A DNA stretch of 49,109 bases from the NCBI GenBank assembly GCA_023473425.1, contig JAMCYG010000016.1:1-49109 (forward strand), in the 5' to 3' direction. Below the pieces are notes generated by a model. That model was not told the DNA's origin, ran no database searches, and was given only the letters and a program-made list of their open reading frames with translations. Position 1 is the stretch's first letter; each line of letters starts with the position of its first letter. Of this stretch, positions 10,772 through 13,430 are shown piece by piece. The stretch comes from Candidatus Martarchaeota archaeon (lineage in GTDB: Archaea > Micrarchaeota > Micrarchaeia > Micrarchaeales > Micrarchaeaceae). A program made the position numbers and the translations under genes.

Positions 10772-11875
10772 TCAGTCTATCAAGCCGAAAGTGAGAAAGC
10801 TTCTGAGCATGCGCATAGGCCTGTCCATATCACCATGCCTGCTGAAGAACCTCTCGAAGCCAAGATGTCTCATCATGGAGAACGTGGCGCCAAGGTATGG
10901 ATCTCCCACAGAGGAATAGTACCTGTGTATGATGCTGTGCATCTTCAAATCGGCGCCATAAATCTTCCTCCATGCTGTTTCATACTCTGCAAGCCTGCCT
11001 TCATTGCGAGCTGCCCTGCTGACATATTCAGCAAGTATCCTGGCGCAGCCAACGCCAAAAACTATCCCGCCGCCAGTAGTGGCCTTTACCTGGCCTGCTG
11101 CATCTCCCACAAGTGCCGTATTTCCTATTACAGTACGTGACCTCTGCTTTAGTGGTATCATGCTTGCATAACCATCGTGAATTCTGCTTCTATCAATGCC
11201 TTTTATAGCTCCTGAATCGATAAGCATGTCAAATGCCTTCCTACTAGTCATCCTCTGCTTCTCACCTACCCCTATCCCTATCTCAATGTGATTTGCAGAA
11301 TATGGTACTATCCATCCGAATAGCCCATTTGATACCTTTTTCGAGAAGAATATGTCTACCAAATCATCGTCTATGGCTTCTGTAGTCTCTGCTTCAGCCT
11401 TGTAGGTGAGCACACGCTCACTTATCTTTGGGAATCCGAGCACGCTTGCCACATTTGATACTGCACCATCAGCTCCAATCAGTATGGTGTTGCCTGAATC
11501 CTGTATCTCAGAAATGCGTTCCCTTCCAAGCCTCTCGCCCAGATGAATTTTAACCCCTACCTTCCTGGCCATCCTCTCGGCAGACTTGACTAGCAAGCCT
11601 CTGTCTACCACATACGCTTCGACCTTGCTTGACTTTACTGTAAGTGTCGAGCCTGCCGCATGCAGCCTTGCCCCGCTGAGCGGGTTTACTACAGCTTCGG
11701 AATACTCTATGCCTGTGCTCTTAAGCCCTCTTACTGATATTATTCCAGAAGCCTTCGGTGCACCCTCTTCGACAGACTTCTTTGAGTCGTAGACATCCAC
11801 GTCTATGCCTCTTTCAGCTATGAATCTGGCCGCGCTCAGCCCGACTATACCTGCGCCTACCACTACTACGTCCAT
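10772..11875 (-). CDS. Geranylgeranyl reductase family FAD protein
   Basis: A 367-residue flavoprotein of the family that saturates isoprenoid chains of archaeal membrane lipids (digeranylgeranylglycerophospholipid reductase), acting at the membrane with an unidentified reductant. The N-terminal dinucleotide-binding motif G-A-G-I-V-G (residues 7-12) leads into a Rossmann fold with an acidic strand end (V-Y-D-S-K). The second FAD motif G-D-A-A-G-Q followed by T-T-G-G-G-I is characteristic of this family. ATG start at 11875. It stands alone on the minus strand; related members reduce free geranylgeranyl-PP, so substrate is inferred. Confidence 0.87.
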   Translation of the reverse strand: MDVVVVGAGIVGLSAARFIAERGIDVDVYDSKKSVEEGAPKASGIISVRGLKSTGIEYSEAVVNPLSGARLHAAGSTLTVKSSKVEAYVVDRGLLVKSAERMARKVGVKIHLGERLGRERISEIQDSGNTILIGADGAVSNVASVLGFPKISERVLTYKAEAETTEAIDDDLVDIFFSKKVSNGLFGWIVPYSANHIEIGIGVGEKQRMTSRKAFDMLIDSGAIKGIDRSRIHDGYASMIPLKQRSRTVIGNTALVGDAAGQVKATTGGGIVFGVGCARILAEYVSRAARNEGRLAEYETAWRKIYGADLKMHSIIHRYYSSVGDPYLGATFSMMRHLGFERFFSRHGDMDRPMRMLRSFLTFGLID

Positions 11876-11951
11876 AGTATGGCTACCCTGCAGCTATATA
11901 AAGGCAAGACTTATATTTATATTGTGTTTATTAGGTTAAAGAGGAGATTGC

Positions 11952-12296
11952 ACGGCGAAAAAAGGTAATGCTAAGCCGGCCAAGGCCGAGCGCAAGACAT
12001 CTGGCAGTAGCCTTGACATACATCCGATAATAGAGATACAGAACATAGTGGCCAACGCAGAGCTGCACGCCACAGTGGATCTGTATGCGCTTTCCAAAGG
12101 GGTGAAATCCGTCGACTATGAGCCCGAGCAGTTTCCAGGCGCCATATTTAGGATAGACAACCCTAAGGCTGTGATAATACTTTTCAAGAATGGCAAGATG
12201 ATATGCACTGGCACCAATTCAGAAGAGAACATAAAGAAGGTTCTCGACTATGCCGCCAAAACGATAGCCAAGTATGTAATATCTGTTGAAAAGTGA
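11952..12296 (+). CDS. Single-repeat TATA-binding-protein-like protein (half TBP)
   Basis: Encodes one TBP repeat of about 80 residues after a basic tail (A-K-K-G-N-A-K-P-A-K). The core reads I-E-I-Q-N-I-V, then Y-E-P-E-Q-F-P-G, N-P-K-A-V-I-I-L-F-K-N-G-K, C-T-G and N-S-E-E. This is closer to the second repeat of archaeal TBP than to the first. Both phenylalanines matching the DNA-kinking pair (in Q-F-P-G and I-L-F-K) are present. A stop follows, then a gene on the other strand, so the other repeat is missing rather than frameshifted. No ATG/GTG/TTG occurs in frame before GTG 12048, which would cut off the first strand. ACG 11952 has GGAGAT three bases upstream and would give M-A-K-K. It could dimerise to mimic full TBP; that is inference. 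Confidence 0.75.
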   Translation, partial: TAKKGNAKPAKAERKTSGSSLDIHPIIEIQNIVANAELHATVDLYALSKGVKSVDYEPEQFPGAIFRIDNPKAVIILFKNGKMICTGTNSEENIKKVLDYAAKTIAKYVISVEK

Positions 12297-12302
12297 CCCA
12301 GG

Positions 12303-13430
12303 CTAATCCTTCATGGCCTTCTTCAGCTCTTTGTCGAAAGTGCGGAAGAATGCTTCCCAGGAATAGTGCTTCTTTACCCTATCAATGCCTCTCTTACCCA
12401 TACGCTCTGCTTCATCAGGATTCTGCGCAACGTATCCCATCTTTTCGGCCATCTCATCGGGACTGTCTACGAGGAATCCAGTCACTCCATCTACAACCGT
12501 TTCTCTTACACCTCCCTCTCTCACTGCTATTATCGGCTTGCCTGACGCCATTGACTCTACAGGGACTAGGCCGTAGTCCTCATCCATTGCAGTGAATAGC
12601 ACAGCAGTGGCATTGCTGTAGAGTCTTACCAGCTCATTGTCTTCAACATCGGTTTTTAGTTCTACATCCGGCACGCTTTTGGCCATGCGTTCTATAGTGT
12701 GGTAATAATCGCGATACATCGGATCCCTAGATACAGATCCGCACATAATAAGCCTGTATCCTGGATTGCTGGTCCTAAACCTCTCGAATGCATGTATCGC
12801 ATATTCCTGCCTTTTGTTCGGAGAAAACCTCGACGGGTACAAGAAGTATTTCTCATCGCCCTTGTTCGAATACCTTGAACTGTCCACGCCGCCATTCAGG
12901 GCAATTACATCTTTTCTGCCATAATACTTCTCTATCCTTGCCTTTGTGTTTGTGCTGTTGGCTATTATATGCTTTATATTCTTGACTACTGACCTATCAA
13001 TCATTCTCATAGCCATGGCACCTGCAGCATAAACGGGCCTGTTCCATGGCTTCCTGAGCGATAGCCTATACTTGTACAGATCATATATCTCTCTCATGGG
13101 TGTGTGGCAGTACCAAAGCACACGCTCATTATTCCTTCTAACCCAGTGGCTTGGCGCTACCTGCGCGTTTATCACGTCATAGTCCTCCTTTATTTTGAGT
13201 TTGTAGAATCCAATCCCGTAACTGAGCCCCTGAAATGCCCTATTGTAAGGCAGCAAGCTGCTGCGGCCGCCAATGACCCTGATATCCAGATCCTCAAATT
13301 CCTCGAAAGTGTTCTTCTTGTCATATTCTATTGTATATATTACCGCATCGTAGTGCTGTGCAATTTTCAGCAGTACTCTCTCTGCGCCTCCCCTGAGCGT
13401 CAGGTTTGACTGCGTCATTACGAGCTTCAA
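12303..13430 (-). CDS. GT4-family glycosyltransferase
   Basis: A 375-residue GT-B fold enzyme, probably cytoplasmic or membrane-associated, transferring a sugar from a nucleotide donor to a lipid or glycan. The N-terminal half has G-G-A-E-R-V-L-L and W-Y-C-H-T-P-M-R, typical of WbaZ-like mannosyltransferases. The C-terminal donor-site half has P-S-R-F-S-P-N-K-R and E-D-Y-G-L-V-P-V-E-S-M-A-S-G-K-P, with the E-x7-E retaining motif. The start is TTG at 13430 with GGTG upstream; ATG four codons later is an alternative. Many N-glycosylation sequons in nearby surface proteins fit a role in S-layer or lipid glycan synthesis, but the substrate is unknown. Confidence 0.87.
   Translation of the reverse strand: MKLVMTQSNLTLRGGAERVLLKIAQHYDAVIYTIEYDKKNTFEEFEDLDIRVIGGRSSLLPYNRAFQGLSYGIGFYKLKIKEDYDVINAQVAPSHWVRRNNERVLWYCHTPMREIYDLYKYRLSLRKPWNRPVYAAGAMAMRMIDRSVVKNIKHIIANSTNTKARIEKYYGRKDVIALNGGVDSSRYSNKGDEKYFLYPSRFSPNKRQEYAIHAFERFRTSNPGYRLIMCGSVSRDPMYRDYYHTIERMAKSVPDVELKTDVEDNELVRLYSNATAVLFTAMDEDYGLVPVESMASGKPIIAVREGGVRETVVDGVTGFLVDSPDEMAEKMGYVAQNPDEAERMGKRGIDRVKKHYSWEAFFRTFDKELKKAMKD

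Follow-up and report, generated by a model that had tools for sequence, protein, structure and literature searches.

The TATA-binding protein (TBP) is regarded as essential, and elsewhere it is a fused pair of similar halves, two lobes being needed to build the saddle of established TBP structures. In a study of 34 species the N and C repeats fall into two clean clades, pointing to one ancient duplication (PMC4910066). Single-lobe versions of TBP in archaea are referred to in one Methods sentence of a 2020 paper (PMC7221094), which cites Brindefalk et al. 2013; that passage names no lineage, and says nothing of genomes without a two-lobe TBP, of lobes pairing or fusing again, of paralogs or of a start codon. 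A single TBP-like domain that binds nucleic acid is also described as the N-domain of bacterial RNase HIII (DUF3378, PF11858; PMC4132731). For the Micrarchaeota, our literature search returned only statements of presence, with DPANN surveys saying that TBP is present, and no description of phylum-wide replacement, re-fusion or an ACG start was found in the literature searched. As far as that literature goes, it is new that much of the phylum has replaced its two-lobe TBP and that the form changes repeatedly at one locus; an A/B gene pair and a conserved ACG start are new as well.

The TBP-A gene and its product

The window (the whole 49,109-nucleotide stretch of DNA that was analyzed) contains a gene, A, coding for a single-lobe TATA-binding protein, TBP-A (11952–12296, + strand), with 114 amino acids plus a stop; the assignment draws on Pfam, AlphaFold2, Foldseek and dN, and the frame translates as TAKKGNAK...YVISVEK before the stop. 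The original prediction of a single TBP repeat is borne out by one match (residues 27–108) that spans the whole Pfam TBP model (positions 2–85 of 85) and scores 88.6 bits against a cut-off of 22.9 (E 2.5e-25), placing the TBP lobe (PF00352) at 12030–12275 (+). The sole other family named, DUF3378 of RNase HIII, stays below its cut-off (13.6 of 27 bits), and the 114-residue protein has no RNase domain; the best match is thus to TBP and not to a helix-grip family outside it, an alternative that had been raised. Among solved structures the nearest in sequence are archaeal TBPs, with a match to each of their repeats.

The AlphaFold2 model is a confident single lobe (mean pLDDT 88.4, with block means of at least 90 from residue 31 to residue 110), and the predicted fold superimposes on one lobe of solved TBPs (e.g. 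human) with an rmsd of 0.8–0.9 Å over about 82 columns; all 44 Foldseek matches in the PDB at E≤0.001 are TBPs. The lobe is preceded by a basic N-terminal tail of about 24 residues (11955–12023, +), as predicted, which is variable among orthologs and has low pLDDT. The chain does not contain two tandem lobes, and a convergent glycosyltransferase gene (12303–13430, −; assigned by profile) begins 7 bases past the stop at 12296, so there is no space for a second lobe and a missed repeat is excluded, as had been argued. By sequence comparison TBP-A is under strong purifying selection, because two members of the genus differ with a dN of 0.011 against synonymous differences near saturation (pS 0.75). 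Elsewhere in the window, an Rfam tRNA match of 131 bases (8–138, −) with no ARAGORN call is probably an intron-bearing tRNA gene.

DNA and TFB contacts

TBP-A retains the residues by which known TBPs contact DNA (N31, V33, F61, F78, K82, I84 and T86), comprising the characteristic Asn, Val, two Phe, Lys and Thr; the DNA-kinking phenylalanines F61 and F78, both noted in the original prediction, are invariant in 39 aligned sequences. The stirrup YEPEQFPG (12117–12140, +), which includes the kinking F61, is likewise invariant in the alignment, and its residues E57 and E59 correspond to the TFB contacts of the canonical C-lobe. E57 is present in 100% of canonical C-lobes and Micrarchaeota lobes, and is replaced by D, N or H in most canonical N-lobes. 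YEPEQFPG is the C-lobe form of the stirrup and is found in every Micrarchaeota lobe sampled; a symmetric saddle would therefore offer a TFB site at each end. The partner TFB is ordinary: one protein carries both cyclin repeats in 9/9 genomes tested, including that of the window.

TATA boxes are evident as well. In a genome with a single TBP gene (G027), TATTTATA occurs upstream of genes 11 times against 0.6 expected, with a small peak 30–39 nt before start codons, and in three related genomes TATA boxes are frequent 30–50 nt upstream of start codons. As a test of a symmetric TBP, TATA symmetry is uninformative, because genomes with one gene, two genes or a two-lobe TBP all have TATAAATA about as often as its reverse complement.

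Start codon and upstream signals

The gene boundary at 11952 in the original prediction stands, although there is no ATG, GTG or TTG there and the ACG start behind a Shine-Dalgarno sequence had been overlooked. ACG is a very rare start codon. We infer that translation of A initiates at the ACG at 11952–11954 (+), which lies 5 nt past the Shine-Dalgarno sequence GAGGAG (11941–11946, +) and has no in-frame ATG, GTG or TTG between it and the domain core; a TATA box, TATTTATA, begins 38 nt upstream of the ACG (11914–11921, +). A mechanical open reading frame start at a GTG (12048) was rejected, as it falls within the first strand of the domain. A geranylgeranyl-reductase-family gene (10772–11875, −; TIGR02032 E 6e-43, slightly below cut-off) is transcribed divergently from A and has its own TATA-like site, TTTATATA in minus-strand letters (11895–11902, −).

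Orthologs of A have similar signals, with GGTG(A/G/T) or GAGG at a similar distance from the ACG. A Shine-Dalgarno sequence is followed by ACG at 3–9 nt in 39/85 distinct orthologs, or about 38 without L066, where the pairing looks spurious; as the orthologs are related, these counts are not independent events. The spacing is nearly fixed in the anchored set, which includes L077, L087, L054, L059, L028, L027 and L052; at least 12 of the 85 have no canonical start codon at all ahead of the domain core, and in several a stop codon lies immediately 5′ of the ACG. In 36/39 orthologs the ACG is followed by a codon for Ala, Ser or Pro, and only 18% of Thr codons within A domains are ACG. The same scan gives three anchored ACA codons, all within the tail or domain and none at the start. 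B genes (see below) and fused genes have ATG, GTG or TTG starts, and five anchored ACG codons in the B set, within or ahead of the tail, look like chance. A limited literature search turned up no account of archaeal genes starting with ACG. For a gene of core transcription, so weak a start points to translation as the step that may set the level of A, and the ACG is possibly a means of translational control.

TBP genes across the Micrarchaeota

The genome containing the window is a Micrarchaeota draft (735 kb, 27 contigs, 89% complete). A six-frame search of the whole genome for the TBP family gives two matches only, both single-lobe, namely A and a second gene, B, on contig 4; no two-lobe TBP was found there or in one-contig relatives, and the genome has no better TBP candidate than A and B. 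The suggestion that A could modulate transcription while a normal two-repeat TBP is encoded at another place is thus not supported, since the search gave only a second single-lobe gene. B adjoins a gene that we read from its sequence as coding for ribosomal protein L21e (rpl21e).

TBP matches are present in 155/164 genomes of the order, nearly all as separate single-lobe frames. Genomes of family f1 with matches have single-lobe genes, usually two, including the one-contig genomes G009, G010 and G106, and family f2 genomes have one or two; some f2 genomes keep B and have no A, so A is dispensable there. The single repeat is widespread at class level (146 genomes, completeness ≥80%), with single-lobe TBPs in 15 of the 24 families sampled (f1, f2, f4, f5, f6, f7, f9, f11, f13, f15, f16, f17, f18, f20 and f23) and two-lobe TBPs in nine (f3, f8, f10, f12, f14, f19, f21, f22 and f24); a phylum-level search added no further classes. 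Several genomes have exactly one single-lobe TBP gene and nothing else, among them G027 (one contig, 93%), G025 (97%) and G168 (100%), these completeness values being estimates. With TBP regarded as essential, it appears that a homodimer must do the job in such genomes, because the saddle needs two lobes and no other candidate is seen in them.

Most of the genomes were assembled from metagenomes, and a few depart from these patterns. G016 (92% complete) gives no TBP match, probably through missing sequence, and G011 has an extra two-lobe TBP (C43, L003) besides its single-lobe genes, which is probably contamination because its sequence is canonical, its lobes join the canonical ones in the tree and its flank has no rpl21e. 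Some f7 genomes (G177, G183 and G186; e.g. L132, L134, L137, L162 and L163) code for three separate single-lobe TBPs.

The two genes occupy distinct loci. An rpl21e gene lies directly upstream of 15/16 f1 B genes, 35/37 f2 genes and most single-lobe genes of other families, and also of all 20 two-lobe genes in L185–L204 (20/20); because rpl21e is upstream in both forms, single- and two-lobe TBPs appear to alternate at one orthologous locus. The A locus is marked by its two neighbors, with the geranylgeranyl-reductase-family gene upstream in 55/84 cases and the glycosyltransferase gene downstream in 73/86, among loci with enough flank. The original prediction had allowed that relatives might have a full two-repeat gene at the position of A; none do, and the two-repeat TBPs of other Micrarchaeota families are at the rpl21e locus of the other half-gene.

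Evolutionary history of the lobes

In a tree of 108 lobes (88 columns and few canonical TBPs, with seven residues of the M. jannaschii N-lobe masked), all Micrarchaeota lobes, whether single or either half of a fused protein, form one clan (UFBoot 100) that stands apart from the canonical N and C lobes. A vertical history of the Micrarchaeota lobes, N with N and C with C, is rejected (AU p 0.004), and the phylum breaks the two-clade N/C pattern of PMC4910066. Topology tests used full searches; an IQ-TREE --fast run was discarded (free tree +30 log units over the clan tree). The description of A as second-repeat-like holds for profiles, where 9/10 NCBIfam two-repeat TBP models align their second repeat with it, but the phylogeny does not make it a canonical second repeat.

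Lobe-lobe identity in fused Micrarchaeota TBPs is mostly 49–74%, with one divergent case at 37%, compared with 39–54% in canonical archaea. In two fused f12 proteins (L194 and L200) the lobes share 74% identity and cluster with each other in the tree, suggesting recent re-duplication inside the gene or, as the alternative, gene conversion between the fused lobes.

A tree of RNA polymerase B (weakly supported in parts of its backbone, and with f15 dropped because the wrong ORF was sampled) has its earliest branch among single-lobe families and places two-lobe families in three positions. Parsimony at equal costs requires three gains from a single-lobe ancestor versus five losses from a two-lobe one, a balance that reverses when a gain costs twice a loss. 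The ancestral TBP was most likely single-lobe, with the two-lobe form arising again in some families. We note that RNA polymerase B itself appears to be split in most Micrarchaeota (L279–L307), with a second half of about 600–640 aa, and that the f20 gene (L297) is a long open frame of 1111 aa.

Derivation of the ancestral single lobe from the N half, from the C half or from a state before their split gives AU p values of 0.61, 0.38 and 0.38, respectively, and the topology that keeps the Micrarchaeota lobes, the canonical N-lobes and the canonical C-lobes in three clans of their own survives the test (AU p 0.38); the 88 columns do not separate loss of one lobe from a pre-duplication state. It is quite improbable that the Micrarchaeota single-lobe TBP is a survivor predating the duplication behind the classical two-lobe TBP; if it were, the ancestral homodimeric factor would still be driving transcription in these cells. 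The original idea of a homodimer mimicking an ancestral TBP keeps its first part, and on firmer ground than was then known, in that a dimer fits and some relatives have a single lobe as their only TBP; a relic that was never duplicated is a possible reading, though not the one we prefer.

Relationship of A and B

A is a single clan that includes the second genes of f2. A fuller tree search makes that clan the sister group of the B genes from this order, and A is therefore most likely the product of a duplication of B within the order. The two differ at positions that distinguish canonical lobes. At position 30, in strand 1, canonical N-lobes have Glu and canonical C-lobes Gln; f2 B genes have Glu in 97% and A genes Gln in 82%. 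At position 74, which we take to correspond to yeast Val203, a groove-facing residue used in altered-specificity mutants, canonical N-lobes have Ala and canonical C-lobes Val; B has Ala, and A has Val in 74%. This signal comprises two alignment columns and eight canonical TBPs, four of them haloarchaeal, and the alignment has no clear column with the reverse N/C pattern between A and B. The B lobes of f1, normally accompanied by A in the same genome, have mostly lost Glu30, and lone B lobes keep it. Our best guess, because A is C-lobe-like and B N-lobe-like at positions 30 and 74, is that A and B split the C and N roles and would form an A:B heterodimer.

A proposed heterodimeric TBP

We propose that A is one half of a TBP whose halves are separate polypeptides and which forms an A:B heterodimeric saddle; taken as a whole, we consider this proposal rather probable. 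From the lobe and its conservation, the two-lobe TBP not being detected, the sister gene, the ordinary TFB and the TATA boxes, all observed directly, we infer dimerization, A:B pairing and initiation at ACG. In many Micrarchaeota families the TBP gene at the rpl21e locus is single-lobe, and where its product is the sole TBP it would pair with itself into a ten-stranded saddle. Within this order the gene would have been duplicated, B staying by rpl21e and A lying between the geranylgeranyl-reductase and glycosyltransferase genes. A and B would then most likely lie next to each other, joined by their first strands in a heterodimeric saddle, with B in the N-lobe role and A in the C-lobe role; insertion of F61 and F78 from both lobes would bend TATA boxes, and the ordinary TFB would meet the YEPEQFPG stirrup. 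Counting against the proposal are the small number of columns and canonical TBPs behind the pairing signal, the f2 genomes that keep B without A, and the 89% completeness of the genome, as a two-lobe TBP may sit in the missing part of this strain, although one-contig relatives show none.

Homodimers of A could instead be an alternative TBP for a subset of promoters, with B homodimers serving the remainder, an arrangement comparable to the multiple TBPs of haloarchaea. Relatives that make do with B alone must have B homodimers, and A retains the full set of DNA- and TFB-contact residues and forms a clan of its own; we nonetheless find this arrangement doubtful, given the contrasting lobe types of A and B at positions 30 and 74 and the loss from most f1 B genes of the E30 that lone B lobes keep. 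Still less likely is that A is a modulator that binds B or DNA to block or tune initiation and is kept low by its ACG start. The non-canonical start in many orthologs does suggest low or controlled translation, and several f2 genomes have B without A, but there is no sequence sign of a lost DNA or TFB surface, and the lobe is under strong purifying selection.

The differences at positions 30 and 74, together with profile alignments that favor the second repeat for A, could also reflect a true split, in which one ordinary TBP was cut in two, its C-lobe giving A and its N-lobe giving B. Such a descent is very improbable, since a tree with A beside canonical C and the other Micrarchaeota lobes beside canonical N is rejected (AU p 0.025; a tree with A alone moved beside canonical C is marginal, AU p 0.075), and the Micrarchaeota-wide residues A64, I65, K79, N80 and I84 are common to A and B. 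Since the genome is a draft in 27 contigs, A might be an assembly artefact or a truncated gene, but single lobes in more than 100 genomes, some of them one-contig, with conserved neighbors, refute this and leave it next to no chance.

Implications and comparison with known systems

With half-TBPs in most sampled families, the assumed homodimeric ancestor of TBP becomes testable using living proteins, and the question arises of how promoter direction is set by a symmetric TBP saddle. The findings also suggest that lobes have fused anew, that they have differentiated as separate genes and that a gene at the core of transcription has a conserved ACG start. They may explain gaps in annotation, because curated TBP models demand two-lobe scores.

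Among described systems, TBP-A is closest to the two-lobe archaeal TBPs (PF00352; S. acidocaldarius 1mp9, M. jannaschii 2z8u and P. woesei 1ais/1pcz), with which it shares the lobe fold and the residues contacting DNA and TFB. It differs from them in having one lobe and not two in tandem, in scoring 69–90 bits where the NCBIfam TBP models require 181–347, and in belonging to a group in which the C-lobe type of stirrup is universal among the lobes sampled. Like the N-domain of RNase HIII it has one TBP-like domain, but it has no RNase domain. The two-lobe TBPs of the nine Micrarchaeota families listed above share the rpl21e locus of B and belong to the same clan as TBP-A, and differ from it in that their lobes are fused; these lobes are usually more alike than those of canonical archaea.
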